A stretch of 64,000 bases of DNA from Flavobacterium lindanitolerans. Lineage in GTDB: Bacteria; Bacteroidota; Bacteroidia; Flavobacteriales; Flavobacteriaceae. Where the stretch lies: contig NZ_PJND01000011.1 of the NCBI RefSeq assembly GCF_002846575.1, positions 1 to 64,000 of the forward strand. Reading direction: 5' to 3'. Under the pieces are notes generated by a model. That model searched no databases. It had not been told where the DNA came from and saw only the letters and a list, made by a program, of their open reading frames with translations. Both the position numbers and the translations under genes were made by a program. Positions 48,473 through 62,671 of the stretch are shown in pieces. Each line of letters starts with the position of its first letter. The stretch's first letter is position 1.

Positions 48473-48670
48473 AAATTATCTTTTAAGTTAAATTTCCTTA
48501 CTCATAAGGCTTTTCAGTAACGCCCCGTTTTTTGAGTGGTTTCTGGTCTCCACTATATTTTAATTTATTACACACTTCGTTTTTCACAGATTTTTGATTA
48601 CTGCCACTCCAATCTGATAACAAATTCATCCGAAAGAGAATAATTTTTGAACTTTTTTTACCTTGAACCT

Positions 48671-55725: not shown

Positions 55726-56001
55726 CTAGCCTTTCAGGTTGTTGAGGCTGGCGATATACTCGTCAAGTACTTTTTGGTTGAGCGAATATTTTAGGTTTCT
55801 TCCTTCTTTTTCAGGAATAAGAAGGTCAGCATCTACCAATTGCTTGAGGTGGTGCGAAACAGAAGGCTGTGTAAGGTCGAGCATATCATTAAACTCGGCA
55901 CAGTAAACACCATCATGCTTTTTTTTGAATTGCTGCAAAATAGCAATTCTGCTCACATCGCTCAGGGCTTTAGATATTTTCTCTATTTTTTTGTTATCCA
56001 T
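55726..56001 (-). CDS. ArsR-family winged-helix regulator
   Basis: 91 residues from ATG at 56001; an adjacent in-frame ATG at 56004 is equally possible. The helix-turn-helix is VYCAEFNDMLDLTQPSVSHHLKQL with a wing LLIPEKEGRNLKYSLN. The metal-binding cysteine pair in helix 3 of ArsR/SmtB is absent (only one Cys, in CAEF), so a non-metal ligand is likely. It should repress itself and the MFS gene that follows. Confidence 0.9.
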   Translation of the reverse strand: MDNKKIEKISKALSDVSRIAILQQFKKKHDGVYCAEFNDMLDLTQPSVSHHLKQLVDADLLIPEKEGRNLKYSLNQKVLDEYIASLNNLKG

Positions 56002-56157
56002 CATAGCAATTATGATAACTATCATTTGGTAAATCTGTTACAAAATTACAAAACATATAGAAACATATAAATATATACATGGATAAATTTGATTTAAATA
56101 TCAACAATATCTATTCTGTAAGGTCAAGCCCGCGGAAAAGCTACCTTTTCCACTGAT

Positions 56158-56622
56158 CTACAAACAGTTGATTACGGAACTTTCTTTAATGCTCCTGATA
56201 ACAAAAGCACTTTTGATATTGGAAATAATTTCAAGTTTTGAGATTTTATGTACGGCGAAATTCTGATAATCTTCCATATCATCCAGTAAAAGTTTTAGGA
56301 GAAAATCATAAGTACCGGCTATATAGGATGCTTCCAAAACCTCATCAAGTCCTAAAACATACGATTCAAATTCTTCAAAAAGCGATTCCTGATGCCTCAC
56401 AAGCGTTACCTGGCAATACACCAATAATTTTTTTCCCAAAGCTTTGGGGTCGATTACGGCAGCATAATTCTGAATGACACCTGCAGATTCCAACTTTTTG
56501 ATTCGCTCATGAACCGGAGTAATTGACAGGTTTACCTTCTCTGCCAGCTGTTTTATAGATTGTTTTGCATCTTTTTGGAGTTCCAGCAGCAATTTTCTGT
56601 CGGTTGCATCTAATGTTATCAT
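56158..56622 (-). CDS. Lrp/AsnC family transcriptional regulator
   Basis: 154 residues. The N-terminal HTH is LDATDRKLLLELQKDAKQSI (residues about 3-22) with NLSITPVHERIKKLES, and a RAM ligand-binding domain occupies about 65-150 (YCQVTLVRHQESLFEEF). ATG at 56622 (MITLDATD) is the family start; the ATG at 56670 adds a nonconserved leader. It stands divergently to the Cys/Met-rich leader and susCD operon, and Lrp-type regulators bind amino acids, so control of the neighbour is plausible. Confidence 0.93.
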   Translation of the reverse strand: MITLDATDRKLLLELQKDAKQSIKQLAEKVNLSITPVHERIKKLESAGVIQNYAAVIDPKALGKKLLVYCQVTLVRHQESLFEEFESYVLGLDEVLEASYIAGTYDFLLKLLLDDMEDYQNFAVHKISKLEIISNIKSAFVIRSIKESSVINCL

Positions 56623-56748
56623 AGTATGATTTTCTATTTTGGATAAAAAGTCCAATACAAAACTATACAAAAATACTATTAAAAATAGATTAAAAAGAAA
56701 AACATACTGATTTTGATGTGTTTTACAGAATTAAAGTGTTTTATTAAA

Positions 56749-56756
56749 TACATTTG
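56749..56756 (+). promoter_or_regulatory. -7 element of leader-susCD operon
   Basis: TACATTTG fits the consensus; transcription would start near 56763, 48 nt before the leader ORF. No well-placed -33 TTG was found. Confidence 0.55.
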
Positions 56757-56810
56757 CCACAGAAATACGGACTAAAAATTTGATACCAATCAAATAATAA
56801 AATCTACCCA

Positions 56811-56987
56811 ATGAATCAGTTTACAAACATCAGCAAAAACCCAACTTCAAAATCTAAAAACTTTTTTGGCTTTTTAGAATGCATGATGCTATGTAAAAAT
56901 TGTTGGCATAAAGCCACAACCTGCTGTACAAACAGTACTTCAATGTATAGCGCATCAATGAATTATTGGTGCATGAATATTTCATAA
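56811..56987 (+). CDS. Cys/Met-rich leader peptide upstream of susCD
   Basis: 58 codons, ATG 56811 to TAA 56985-56987. Cys at 24, 28, 31, 38, 39 and 54; Met at 1, 25, 26, 45, 50 and 55; so 12 of 58 residues are sulfur amino acids, nearly all in the last 35 codons, ending NYWCMNIS. No signal peptide. The stop lies 11 nt before an RNA structure that can form either an anti-terminator or a terminator ahead of susC, the geometry of an attenuator leader. A metal-binding miniprotein is the alternative reading. Confidence 0.55.
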   Translation: MNQFTNISKNPTSKSKNFFGFLECMMLCKNCWHKATTCCTNSTSMYSASMNYWCMNIS

Positions 56988-56997
56988 AATCGTAAGA

Positions 56998-57024
56998 CCT
57001 CGACTTTGTATAAAACAAAGGAGG
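56998..57024 (+). promoter_or_regulatory. Candidate anti-terminator hairpin
   Basis: CCTC at 56998-57001 and CTTTGT at 57004-57009 can pair with ACAAAG at 57015-57020 and GAGG at 57021-57024, a 10-bp stem with a 2-nt bulge and loop ATAAA. It uses bases 57017-57024, which are the left arm of the terminator at 57017, so the two cannot form together. Confidence 0.5.
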
Positions 57025-57046
57025 CTTGTGCGAGCCTCCTTTTTTT
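57017..57046 (+). terminator. Intrinsic terminator in the susCD leader
   Basis: A perfect 10-bp stem AAAGGAGGCT with AGCCTCCTTT and a 6-nt loop TGTGCG is followed by T4. It lies between the leader ORF and susC, 75 nt before the susC ATG, so it must be conditional or weak for susC to be transcribed from the upstream promoter. Confidence 0.85.
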
Positions 57047-57120
57047 GTGCCGTTTTTTATAGCAGCTAAAAAACGATACGTATAAGTGTATGCTGCTAAA
57101 ATTAATCAAATCTTTTAAAA

Positions 57121-60100
57121 ATGAAGAGTAAACTATCAAAAATTCTATTCGGATTTTTGCTTCTCAATGCGCTAATAGCAGCAGCGCAGGAAAAGGAAAT
57201 TTCCGGATATGTTACTGATGCGAACAGTCTTTCGCTGCCCGGCGTTACCATAGCGGTAAAAAATACGACACTGGGAACCCAAACCGATTTCGATGGAAAA
57301 TTCACCATCAAAGCGACCCCGGAAGACATTCTTGTTTTCACCTTCCTGGGATACAAAACCCGAGAAATTAAAGTAGGCAGCCAATCCAATCTGACGGTAC
57401 AGCTTTTGGACGAAAGTGTTGGTTTGGACGAAATTGTAATCGTTGCCTACGGAACCCAAAAACAACGTGCGGTTGTGGGTGCCATTGGAAAAGTGAGCAG
57501 TGAGGTTTTAGAAAAGCAGCAGGCCACTTCTGTAATTTCTGCCTTACAAGGTTCTGTTCCGGGTGTCAGCGTTATTAATTCCAGCGGTCAGCCGGGTGAA
57601 AGTCCAACAATACGCGTGAGGGGAATCGGCTCAATAAACGCCTCCGCTTCTCCGCTGATTATTGTAGACGGTGTTCCTTTTAACGGAAACATCAATTCCA
57701 TCAGTTCCGACCAGATTGAATCTATGAACGTCCTGAAAGATGCAGCGTCAACCGCTTTATACGGTTCCCGTGGAGCCAACGGCGTTATTGTCATCAAGAC
57801 AAAATCAGGCAAGAGAAATTCCCTGCCGCAGGTAAGTTTCAGGGTTTCTTCGGGAATCTCCGGTGATGCGGTAAAAACCCATGAAGTTTTAGGCACTAAT
57901 GACTATGTAAAATATTTATGGGAAGCCCGAAAAAACACCTATCAGTATGTTCAGGGGCAAACTCCTGAAAATGCAGCCAGCAATGCGGCTTCAGGATTGG
58001 TTAGCGCTTTGGGATACAATCCATACAATGTTTCAAACATTATCGATTCGAACGGACAATTAAATCCGAATGCCCAATTAAACTGGGAAACGAATTGGAA
58101 GGACGAACTGTTCCGGAACCAAAGCTTTAGGAATGAGTACAATTTCAATGTGAGCGGCGGTAGTGAAAATACCACCTACTTCTTATCCGGAAATTACCTG
58201 AATCAGGACGGATTGGTCAAAACCTCGAAGTTTGAACGTTCCACATTCCGATTAAATGTTGATACTAAAGTAAACGACTGGCTTGAAGTGGGAAGCAATG
58301 TTGCCTATTCGGCCTCACGACAAAACTTTCCTGTGCAATCCGGCACTTCCTTTACCAGCGCCATGAGTTGGATTTATGCCATGCCAAGCGTATACCCTGT
58401 CTACAGACGAAATCCAGACGGCAGTCTTGTATCAGGAAATATTTTTGACTACGGAAACACAACGCAATTGGTGAACGGAGTACGTCCTTTAATGAGTGGC
58501 GACAATGCTGTAGGTTCGCTTTATAAAGACCAGAACCGCAACAACAGAAGCAATGTAAATCTTAACGGATATGCCAAGTTTTTACTGACGGATAAGCTTT
58601 CCTTCAAAACCAATCTGGCGTATGAGGATTATAATTATGATGCCAAAGAATATATGAACTCTGTTTACGGGCAGGCATCAAGCGTCAATGGAAGAGTGAG
58701 CCGTGAAAAGACCAGCACAAAAACCATAAATTTCATCAATGCATTACGCTATGACAATAATTTTGGAGACCATTCTGTTGGTGTTGACGTAATTTACGAA
58801 GCCTATCAATCCAAAAATGACCTGTTTGCAGCTTCATCGACCGGATTTTTGCCGGGCGTAACGGTTATAGGCGGCGGAACTACTCCTGAATCTGTAGATG
58901 GTTATGTTTTGGAAGACCGTTTAAACAGTTTCTTAGGAAGAGTGAGTTACGATTTTGCAAACAAATACTTTCTGGAAGCTTCCTATAGAAGAGACGGTTC
59001 TTCCCGATTTTCACAGGAGGTGCGTTGGGGTAATTTCTATTCAGTTGGAGCTTCCTGGATTATTTCGGATGAGAATTTCTTAAAAGACAGTAACGTGGTC
59101 AATCTTCTGAAATTAAGAGGTTCTTATGGTGAATTGGGTAATAACCAGACTTCTTCCTATTTCCCGTATATCCAGAGTTTTGAAACAGGTTTCAGCCAAC
59201 TGGAAAATCCCGGCGTTTTGCTAGGCGACCGTGTTGATAAAAACCTGACCTGGGAAAAAACGGCATCGTTCAACATTGGACTGGATTTCAGCCTTTTCAA
59301 CAGCCAACTGGAAGGTTCTGTAGATTATTACAACAAGAGTTCAATCGACCTTTTGTACAATGTTCCGATTCCGTCATCAACCGGAAATACAAGCGTATTG
59401 ACCAATGCAGGTTCTCTAAGAAATTACGGTCTGGAGGTTAGCCTTACATCACATAACATCAAAACCGATAACTTCTCGTGGGATACGAATCTGAATTTTT
59501 CTTTAGACCGAAACAAGATTACGGAACTGACGCAGGATTCTTTTATCACAGGCCTGAATCGTTGGGAAGTAGGACGCTCGCTTTATGATTTTTATCTGAG
59601 AGACTATGCCGGTGTCGACCCGAATGACGGTTATGCTATGTGGTATAAGGATGTGGTTGATGCCAACGGAAATGTTACCGGAAAAGAAACGACTAAAAAT
59701 TATGACGAAGCAACAAGATATTACAACAAATCGGCCCTTCCTGCAATCATTGGAGGTATTACGAATTCAGTACAGTTCAAAAGATTTGATGTAAGTGCCT
59801 TGTTCAATTTCAGTTTGGGCTCCTATGTCTATGATTCCGATTATGCAGCCCTGATGGGTGGTATTTCAAGAGGAAGGCAAAGCTCACCCGATATTGAAAA
59901 CCGCTGGACAAAACCGGGTGATATTACCAATATTCCGGTATTGCTCAACTCGACCAATAATTTTGCGGCGGCTTCCACCCGATTCCTGTACAAAAATGAT
60001 TATGTGAGATTGAAAGCGCTGACGTTAGGATACAGCCTTCCAATTGAAAGTATTCATAAACTGAAAATTAATCAGGCAAGGATTTATCTTCAGGCAGACA

Positions 60101-60219
60101 ACCTGCTGACATTCCAATCGCATAAAGGAATCGACCCGGAACAAAGCATTAACGGAACAACCAATTTCAGGTCGCCGCTTTCAAGAACCGTGACATTAGG
60201 ATTCAACCTTAATTTTTAA
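57121..60219 (+). CDS. SusC/RagA-type TonB-dependent transporter
   Basis: 1032 residues. Signal peptide to about residue 22 (LLNALIAAAQ), a carboxypeptidase-D-like domain (about 25-95: ISGYVTDANSLSLPGVTIAV), a TonB-box-like DEIVIVAYGTQKQRAVVGAI, the plug (about 115-235: ALQGSVPGVSVINSSGQPG, RGANGVIVIKTKSGK) and a 22-strand barrel ending VTLGFNLNF. With SusD it imports large or complexed nutrients. Substrate not evident; the sulfur-rich leader upstream hints at a sulfur-containing one. Eleven bases separate it from susD. Confidence 0.95.
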   Translation: MKSKLSKILFGFLLLNALIAAAQEKEISGYVTDANSLSLPGVTIAVKNTTLGTQTDFDGKFTIKATPEDILVFTFLGYKTREIKVGSQSNLTVQLLDESVGLDEIVIVAYGTQKQRAVVGAIGKVSSEVLEKQQATSVISALQGSVPGVSVINSSGQPGESPTIRVRGIGSINASASPLIIVDGVPFNGNINSISSDQIESMNVLKDAASTALYGSRGANGVIVIKTKSGKRNSLPQVSFRVSSGISGDAVKTHEVLGTNDYVKYLWEARKNTYQYVQGQTPENAASNAASGLVSALGYNPYNVSNIIDSNGQLNPNAQLNWETNWKDELFRNQSFRNEYNFNVSGGSENTTYFLSGNYLNQDGLVKTSKFERSTFRLNVDTKVNDWLEVGSNVAYSASRQNFPVQSGTSFTSAMSWIYAMPSVYPVYRRNPDGSLVSGNIFDYGNTTQLVNGVRPLMSGDNAVGSLYKDQNRNNRSNVNLNGYAKFLLTDKLSFKTNLAYEDYNYDAKEYMNSVYGQASSVNGRVSREKTSTKTINFINALRYDNNFGDHSVGVDVIYEAYQSKNDLFAASSTGFLPGVTVIGGGTTPESVDGYVLEDRLNSFLGRVSYDFANKYFLEASYRRDGSSRFSQEVRWGNFYSVGASWIISDENFLKDSNVVNLLKLRGSYGELGNNQTSSYFPYIQSFETGFSQLENPGVLLGDRVDKNLTWEKTASFNIGLDFSLFNSQLEGSVDYYNKSSIDLLYNVPIPSSTGNTSVLTNAGSLRNYGLEVSLTSHNIKTDNFSWDTNLNFSLDRNKITELTQDSFITGLNRWEVGRSLYDFYLRDYAGVDPNDGYAMWYKDVVDANGNVTGKETTKNYDEATRYYNKSALPAIIGGITNSVQFKRFDVSALFNFSLGSYVYDSDYAALMGGISRGRQSSPDIENRWTKPGDITNIPVLLNSTNNFAAASTRFLYKNDYVRLKALTLGYSLPIESIHKLKINQARIYLQADNLLTFQSHKGIDPEQSINGTTNFRSPLSRTVTLGFNLNF

Positions 60220-61771: not shown

Positions 61772-62671
61772 ATGAACAGCAGTAAAAGTACTTTTAGCAT
61801 TAAGGACCTGGAAAATTTATCCGGCATAAAAGCCCATACCATACGTATCTGGGAAAAAAGGTATAATATACTGAAACCCATGCGTACCGTATCAAATATC
61901 AGGCTATACGATACTGAAAACCTACAGAAACTGCTCAACATTACGCTTCTGCACAGCCACGGCTATAAAATATCCAAAATCTCAAAATTCCCTCCTGAAA
62001 AGATTCCGCAGCTTGTGAGTGAAATCATTTCCGACAAAAATATTAACAGTCAGGTTATCAGCTCCTTCAAGATGGCCATGATGGATTTTGACCAAAGACT
62101 GTTTAATACCACCTATGAAAACCTTCTTGTAACAAAATCGTTCGGAGAAATTTTTAAAGAATTGTTCATTCCGCTGCTAAATGAAATTGGAATGCTTTGG
62201 CAAACCGGAACAATTACACCTGCCCACGAACATTTCATCAGTTATCTAATCAGGCAAAAACTATTAAGCAACACCGAACAGTTACAATTGCCGGACCCGT
62301 CCAAAAATGAAAAAATCTTTGTACTGTATCTGCCGCAAAATGAAATCCAGGAACTCGGACTGATGTATCTCAACTATGAAATCCTTTCACGCGGTTATCA
62401 GACCGTTTATCTGGGACAATCTATCGCTATTGAAAACTTAAAAGGATTGGCTACCCATTTTGATACTATAGTGTTCCTGTCTTATTGGACTACGTTCCCC
62501 GAAGCAGACACCATTCCGGAATATCTTGAGAAAATACAACAAGAAATTTTGAGCAGCGGTCATTCAGAATTTTGGGTTTTGGGAAAAATGACGCACTATA
62601 TCCCTACGGAAAACCTTAATCAAAAAATTTCCGTATTTACTACTTTACAACACGCCCTAAACAAACTATAA
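61772..62671 (+). CDS. CarH/LitR-like MerR regulator lacking the B12 His ligand
   Basis: 299 residues. MerR HTH at 8-75 (FSIKDLENLSGIKAHTIRIWEKRY). The four-helix cap has W143-x9-E153-H154, the CarH light-sensing W-x9-EH motif. The cobalamin-binding DxHxxG reads E191-I-Q193-E-L-G196, so the cobalt-ligating His is Gln. It lies 54 nt ahead of crtI and is expected to repress carotenoid genes. Loss of the His suggests it is B12-independent or senses something else. Confidence 0.87.
   Translation: MNSSKSTFSIKDLENLSGIKAHTIRIWEKRYNILKPMRTVSNIRLYDTENLQKLLNITLLHSHGYKISKISKFPPEKIPQLVSEIISDKNINSQVISSFKMAMMDFDQRLFNTTYENLLVTKSFGEIFKELFIPLLNEIGMLWQTGTITPAHEHFISYLIRQKLLSNTEQLQLPDPSKNEKIFVLYLPQNEIQELGLMYLNYEILSRGYQTVYLGQSIAIENLKGLATHFDTIVFLSYWTTFPEADTIPEYLEKIQQEILSSGHSEFWVLGKMTHYIPTENLNQKISVFTTLQHALNKL

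Follow-up and report, generated by a model that had tools for sequence, protein, structure and literature searches.

The window is a 64,000-nucleotide stretch of Flavobacterium lindanitolerans DNA in which a susCD gene pair is preceded by a short open reading frame (ORF) rich in methionine and cysteine and by several potential RNA hairpins. The features at the locus are as follows.

55726-56025, minus strand: ArsR/SmtB-type gene, two genes upstream (NCBIfam metalloregulator subfamily, 58.2 bits against a cut-off of 55)
56158-56625, minus strand: gene for an Lrp/AsnC-family regulator, divergent
56749-56756, plus strand: putative Bacteroidota -7 element TACATTTG, a match to TAnnTTTG
56811-56987, plus strand: leader peptide ORF of 58 codons with 6 Met (start included) and 6 Cys; stop codon TAA at 56985-56987
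56970-56975, plus strand: Cys54-Met55, the proposed last control codons
56991-57030, plus strand: putative antiterminator hairpin (core 56998-57024)
57017-57046, plus strand: intrinsic terminator, nearly invariant in 15 leaders
57051-57075, plus strand: second conserved hairpin, CGTTTTTTA-tagcagc-TAAAAAACG
57092-57097, plus strand: GCTGCT, complementary to the loop AGCAGC (57061-57066), with which it may form a pseudoknot ahead of the susC start
57121-60219, plus strand: susC, SusC/RagA family TonB-linked outer membrane protein, 1032 amino acids
60231-61649, plus strand: susD, SusD/RagB family lipoprotein, 472 amino acids

The susC product matches in sequence a SusC homologue (8aa4, 2.6e-115) and RagA (6sli, 2e-108), of the peptide importer RagAB. 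The window also holds a MerR-type regulator with a B12-binding-like domain (61772-62671), which is CarH-like by NCBIfam at a score below the cut-off; at the related locus L057, the ORFs that follow the MerR-type orthologue presumably encode a carotenoid desaturase and synthase. A DUF805 RNA (RF03081), a cis-regulatory motif, lies at 48490-48558 on the minus strand (83 bits).

An earlier note on this DNA had described a -7 element at 56749, a 58-codon ORF with 6 Cys and 6 Met that stops at 56985-56987, and Cys54 and Met55 at 56970-56975, and each was found in place, with TACATTTG read at 56749-56756. TAnnTTTG is taken here as the Bacteroidota -7 consensus, which makes the element a candidate promoter from which the leader may be transcribed and then translated. 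To gauge the composition of the ORF, we used as background the 45 mechanical ORFs of at least 150 amino acids in the window (17,023 residues; Met 1.97%, Cys 0.64%). Internal Met and Cys account for 11 of 57 residues in the leader ORF (binomial p 2.4e-7). None of the 14,503 segments of 57 amino acids in the 45 larger ORFs matches this content, and among the 203 ATG-initiated ORFs of 30-75 amino acids in the window the leader ORF has the highest Met+Cys density. Its composition is not a chance outcome of the genome's amino-acid use.

The earlier note had also claimed two hairpins downstream of the ORF with bases 57017-57024 in common, and both sequence and folding agree with this. A terminator scan returned AAAGGAGGCTT-GTGC-GAGCCTCCTTT at 57017-57042, followed by T's, and this terminator folds at -16.6 kcal/mol (z -4.7 against shuffles). 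The core of the first hairpin folds alone at -9.1 kcal/mol (z -3.3), and at -12.2 when extended to 56991-57030. Folding 56760-57060 gave a z of -5.7 for the leader. When only the stretch upstream of the terminator was shuffled, the antiterminator had a z of -2.9 and 2 of 200 shuffles were as stable. No protector hairpin was identified in the leader, so that, in contrast to trp, readthrough may be the default when the leader is not translated.

These parts suggest how the leader might work. RNA polymerase would start near 56763, as judged from the -7 element, and a ribosome would translate the Met/Cys-rich ORF behind it. When methionine is plentiful, the ribosome would reach the stop codon and cover or weaken the 5′ arm of the first hairpin; the terminator would then form and transcription would end at about 57046. 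When methionine (or cysteine) is short, the ribosome would wait on a late Met or Cys codon, the first hairpin would form and take up the 5′ half of the terminator, and polymerase would read into susC and susD. A shortage of sulphur amino acids would in this way turn on an outer-membrane importer.

For comparison, we assembled 15 leaders: that of the window and 14 from Flavobacterium and Myroides-type genomes, each preceding an orthologue of this susC. These leaders are related rather than independent, and two of them (G510 and L059) are near-identical. By agreement of coordinates, G170 is F. microcysteis, G646 is Myroides odoratus XSfan, and G734, G638 and G673 are Myroides sp. 1354, WP-1 and N17-2, respectively; the remaining Myroides-type genomes are so called by similarity. 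A SusD search of 199 genomes yielded 11 non-self loci, three of which carry the leader (G170, G076 and G058). It is absent from the 700 bases read upstream at the other eight, where SusC is 42-56% identical, and on this evidence the leader is missing from more distant relatives of susC. F. microcysteis and Myroides species were added by searching named genomes with SusC, which yielded 77 loci. The leader was recognised in seven of these (L057-L061, L066 and L099) by a script that demands both a short ORF and a terminator. The remaining 70 were judged by this script, L064 and L065 also by eye; in some of them, little DNA precedes susC or the position of its start is uncertain.

We also searched with R1, a covariance model of the 3′ part of the leader built from nine leaders on alignment A4; in the window and G170 rows of A2 and A4, MAFFT had put the 5′ arm of the terminator one base off. 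Within the GTDB genus, R1 matched 13 of 398 genomes, including that of the window, in which the window copy is the only match. All 12 matches outside the window (L147-L158) lie before a susC as judged by tblastn. Because nine leaders had gone into the model, only six of the 12 are new (G510, G543, G673, G705, G746 and G616). At the level of the order, 11 of 395 genomes besides that of the window had R1 matches at E ≤0.01, none comparable to the leader. The 12 order-level loci (L135-L146) were rejected as ordinary terminators or chance matches, with a SusC match at none of them. In the family, the window alone was matched (1 of 397 genomes, E ≤1e-5). In searches of more than 40 genomes, the filters were stricter and 10 candidates were scored in each genome, so that some members may have been missed.

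In every one of the 15 leaders, a short ORF stops close to the terminator, which hardly varies, and an upstream arm can pair with the 5′ half of that terminator; a TAnnTTTG match begins 36-80 nt 5′ of the ORF in each. All 14 further leaders thus keep an ORF rich in Met or in Met and Cys, and a competing arm for the alternative pairing, the two features on which the earlier note had staked its reading.

The ORFs fall into three groups. In the Flavobacterium group (window, G170, G746 and G616) they encode 57-61 amino acids and have in common MM, CC and a final C-M-x-[IL]-S; a Cys-Met pair at the place of Cys54-Met55 is kept in all four. In group A (G076, G646, G058, G734 and G638) the ORF encodes 31 amino acids with no Cys or one, and a C-terminal M-x-M-x-x-M-x-M is invariant in the five genomes while every x varies. 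The ORFs of group B (G510, L059, L099, G543, G673 and G705) encode 35-41 amino acids and contain one to four Cys, and S-M-x-M-E is common among them; that of L099 would start with GTG. Met+Cys is in excess in all 15 ORFs, with binomial p values of 2.4e-7 to 1.8e-3 for sequences that are related and not independent. In the Flavobacterium group, enrichment is stronger for Cys (p about 2e-6) than for Met (5e-3 to 0.1), with Met by itself not significantly enriched in G746 (3 of 56, p 0.10). In group A, Met alone is enriched.

The earlier note had proposed Cys or Met as the signal. Met is present in all 15 leader ORFs and Cys is missing from three (G646, G058 and G638), indicating that Met is the best candidate for a common signal and that Cys does not hold as a general one. 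For the Flavobacterium clade and several Myroides-type leaders, Cys is the best candidate for an added signal on the strength of these ORFs.

If the ORF were instead an independent small-protein gene with its own terminator, susC would be reached by readthrough or transcribed from another promoter. The terminator does follow closely after the ORF stop, and ratios resembling dN/dS are low in some pairs (0.30 for window-G170, 0.31 for G058-G734). Across eight pairs, these ratios are mixed, from 0 to 1.34 (one pair without change; 1.34 for G646-G058), so that selection on the whole peptide is modest at most. The product also varies greatly between clades, from 31 to 61 amino acids. A protein search of 150 relatives with the ORF alone gave matches in 68 genomes at E ≤1 (self included), of which those beyond the window were rejected as chance-level; the best non-self E value was 0.005, and G058 and G076 were missed even though they bear the leader. 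Two regularities also speak against a free-standing gene: the 12 of 12 non-window R1 matches among 398 genus genomes that precede a susC, and the competing arm in all 15 leaders. The weakness of the competing fold in a few leaders speaks in its favor. On balance, we consider a separate small-protein gene improbable.

A competing fold that uses the 5′ half of the terminator is present in each of the 15 leaders. The figures given here are for folds from the stall position onward, as earlier folds of G510, L059, L099, G543 and G673 had begun inside the arm (z -0.5 to 0.6). When the stretch between the stall and the terminator was shuffled, the antiterminator had a z of -1.9 or below in 11 of 15 leaders. 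G705 was marginal (z -1.8, 9 of 200 shuffles), and the antiterminator did not stand above shuffles in G616 (z -1.3, 21 of 200), G543 (z -0.8, 36 of 200) or G673 (z -0.9, 32 of 200). Conservation extends to the ORF, the terminator and the competing arm in the 14 further leaders, whereas the competing fold of these last three is no better than that of many shuffles. Among the Myroides-type leaders, 11-93 of 200 shuffles pair equally many bases of the terminator arm. In every leader, the antiterminator is weaker than the terminator (-12.2 versus -16.6 kcal/mol in the window, -8.2 versus -17.3 in G616).

The antiterminator arm differs by clade: CCUC in the window and G170, AAGC in G746 and G616, and CAAAGC or AAAGC in the Myroides-type leaders. 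All of these can pair with a portion of the terminator's 5′ half, and the kept feature appears to be this complementarity, not the arm sequence. The terminator is too invariant across the leaders for covariation to inform on the competing pairing.

To relate the control codons to the hairpins, we modeled a ribosome whose footprint masks 13 nt starting at the first base of the codon in the A site; this size, a usual one, is an assumption of the model. With the ribosome stalled at the last Met, the modeled antiterminator differed by no more than 0.3 kcal/mol from its value with the ribosome one codon earlier in all 15 leaders, and melting began one to four codons past the last Met in all 15. With the ribosome at the stop codon, 8-12% of the antiterminator energy was left in G510, L059, L099, G543 and G673, and 35-72% in the other ten, including 69% in the window. 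In the model, then, a stall spares the antiterminator in 15 of 15 leaders and arrival at the stop disrupts it strongly in five and partially in ten, so that the geometry is sharper in these five group-B leaders than in the window. The late Cys36 of G510, L059 and L099 comes after the point of melting, too late to have an effect in the model.

In the same model, the antiterminator stays free whenever the ribosome stalls short of the melting point. This would allow the attenuator to sense a general slowdown of translation, from starvation or ribosome-targeting antibiotics, rather than Met, and a gene for a drug-type MFS exporter does lie nearby. Such a sensor would not call for the repeated Met/Cys excess or for the invariant Met array of group A, and we judge it very unlikely.

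The divergent Lrp gene is kept beside 10 of the 15 leaders. It was not found at the group-A loci, of which L045 and L046 extend at least 2.4 kb upstream and L058, L061 and L066 extend 4.4 kb. The earlier note had said that this gene fits amino-acid sensing; its position agrees with such a role and is no proof of it.

A peptide rich in Met and Cys could also act as a sensor of copper or another metal while still nascent, like CruR/CutF, binding Cu(I) and thereby controlling the TonB-dependent transporter. This copper-sensing upstream ORF (uORF) is the most serious rival. Both Met and Cys bind copper, and the leaders partly swap one for the other; the MxMxxMxM of group A resembles copper-binding motifs, and the ArsR/SmtB-type gene (55726-56025, minus strand) lies two genes upstream. 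Given the length of the ribosome exit tunnel, however, the group-A Met run, one residue from the C terminus of a 31-amino-acid peptide, would lie inside the tunnel during synthesis. Precedent exists in CutF-like uORFs with metal motifs, and in CruR, whose uORF with metal-binding Cys likewise precedes a TonB-dependent transporter (PMC9973294, in part). The known members have DUF2946, mostly a Sec signal, and a proline-rich stalling tail, as far as the sections of PMC9973294 used here describe them, and the same sections state that CruR works without its signal. The window ORF, the only one scanned, had no Pfam or NCBIfam match at E 0.001, DUF2946 included, and no Sec signal or proline-rich tail was seen on inspection of the 15 peptides by eye. 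Finally, none of six neighboring proteins searched is a recognised copper protein. Taken together, metal sensing has a small chance of being correct.

Between the terminator and susC lies the second conserved element. In alignment A5 (13 leaders; L059 was omitted as near-identical to G510, and G673 because of its insertion), the hairpin at 57051-57075 and the GCTGCT are kept, with 96.6% of cells paired. For the pseudoknot helix, 97.2% of cells are paired, with one mismatch each in G746 and G616 and no covariation. The hairpin and GCTGCT are a possible H-type pseudoknot with a U-rich/A-rich stem. The insertion in Myroides sp. N17-2 (L060:2654-2806; the locus is also L158/G673) is MITE-like, about 160 nt long, with 25-nt terminal inverted repeats that are 84% complementary, and sits in the loop of the second hairpin, between the terminator and susC.

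Were this element a ligand-binding riboswitch and the main control, the ORF would be secondary. The conservation of the hairpin with its complementary GCTGCT in 13 leaders is what speaks for this. There is one compensatory change (G543), and covariation does not rise above shuffles, 63 of 500 of which reach the same level. At the gathering threshold, Rfam gave no match to the window leader (matches of the window and L058 leaders at E ≤10 were far below it), and neither SAM-I nor any other Rfam cis-regulator reached its family cut-off in the leader. A riboswitch would also leave the Met/Cys ORF unaccounted for, and as the main control it is highly improbable. A tandem sulphur switch, in which a Met/Cys-codon attenuator before the outer-membrane importer genes would be joined by a second, undescribed cis-regulatory RNA, the hairpin and pseudoknot at 57051-57097, is a tentative idea that we consider doubtful.

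The comparison of the 15 leaders supports the ribosome-mediated attenuation of susCD that the earlier note had proposed. The susCD leader is probably a transcription attenuator of this kind, sensing charged Met-tRNA and, in the clade of the window, also Cys-tRNA.

Methionine metabolism differs among the genomes that bear the leader. In the window genome, SAM-I riboswitches accompany metH and a gene that, from its sequence, we take to be O-acetylhomoserine-lyase-like. SAM-I (RF00162) occurs in four of 13 leader-bearing genomes, all four of the Flavobacterium group, each with one before metH as judged by coordinates. It was not found in the nine Myroides-type leader-bearing genomes, with up to 144 candidates scored per genome, so that some copies may have been missed. 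The metH model (TIGR02082) matches eight of the 13 genomes and the metE model (TIGR01371) two. The MetX model was uninformative, exceeding its cut-off in 0 of 13 genomes (147-198 bits in ten; about 30 bits in the window genome, G170 and G746). The five group-A genomes (G076, G646, G058, G734 and G638), at 98-99% completeness, have no match to the metH or metE model, and the three Cys-free leaders all belong to this group. These bacteria may be methionine auxotrophs, in need of an outside supply, or may use a different methionine synthase; the Met-only or nearly Met-only leaders are those of this group.

Ribosome-mediated attenuation is well known from amino-acid operons with trp, his and leu leaders. 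The susCD leader resembles these in its short ORF rich in control residues, its terminator with a competing antiterminator, and the position of the ORF end relative to the arm. It differs in that it precedes an outer-membrane importer rather than a biosynthetic operon, in its putative Met/Cys signal, and in having two hairpins with no protector hairpin identified. Cysteine-responsive poly-Cys leader ORFs are known from mycobacteria; there too a short ORF senses a sulphur amino acid, but those leaders are Actinobacterial, respond to Cys only and control sulphur-assimilation genes. The SAM-I riboswitch likewise controls sulphur amino-acid genes, whereas the susCD leader lacks such a motif and has an ORF in place of an aptamer. 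Closest in phylogeny is Flavobacterium psychrophilum, of the same bacterial family, in which leader-peptide attenuators of the same mechanism class were proposed before amino-acid biosynthesis operons (PMC9723704, in part). Those attenuators concern biosynthetic operons, and no SusCD target is named in the portion of PMC9723704 covered here; a supplementary table of that study lists 64 structured leaders. Leader-like short ORFs have been described in Bacteroides (PMC7366714, in part). Among the literature matches listed, with subscription papers and supplements outside scope, there was no SusCD attenuator and no Met leader. The susCD leader would thus be a variant of ribosome-mediated attenuation, not a new mechanism.

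SusCD pairs are mostly known as glycan importers under the control of sensor proteins and small RNAs. A Met/Cys-codon leader would put outer-membrane importers of Bacteroidota under the direct control of amino-acid supply, and would point to sulphur amino acids, or peptides that hold them, as the substrate of this orphan SusCD pair. Uptake of methionine would matter most in the genomes without metH or metE matches. If the tandem switch were true, it would be a main Met-responsive control of a methionine or Met-peptide importer in one Myroides-type group, that in which metH, metE, SAM-I and an Lrp gene beside susC were not found. More generally, a short biased ORF and a terminator before susC would offer a simple rule for guessing the substrates of other orphan SusCD pairs.
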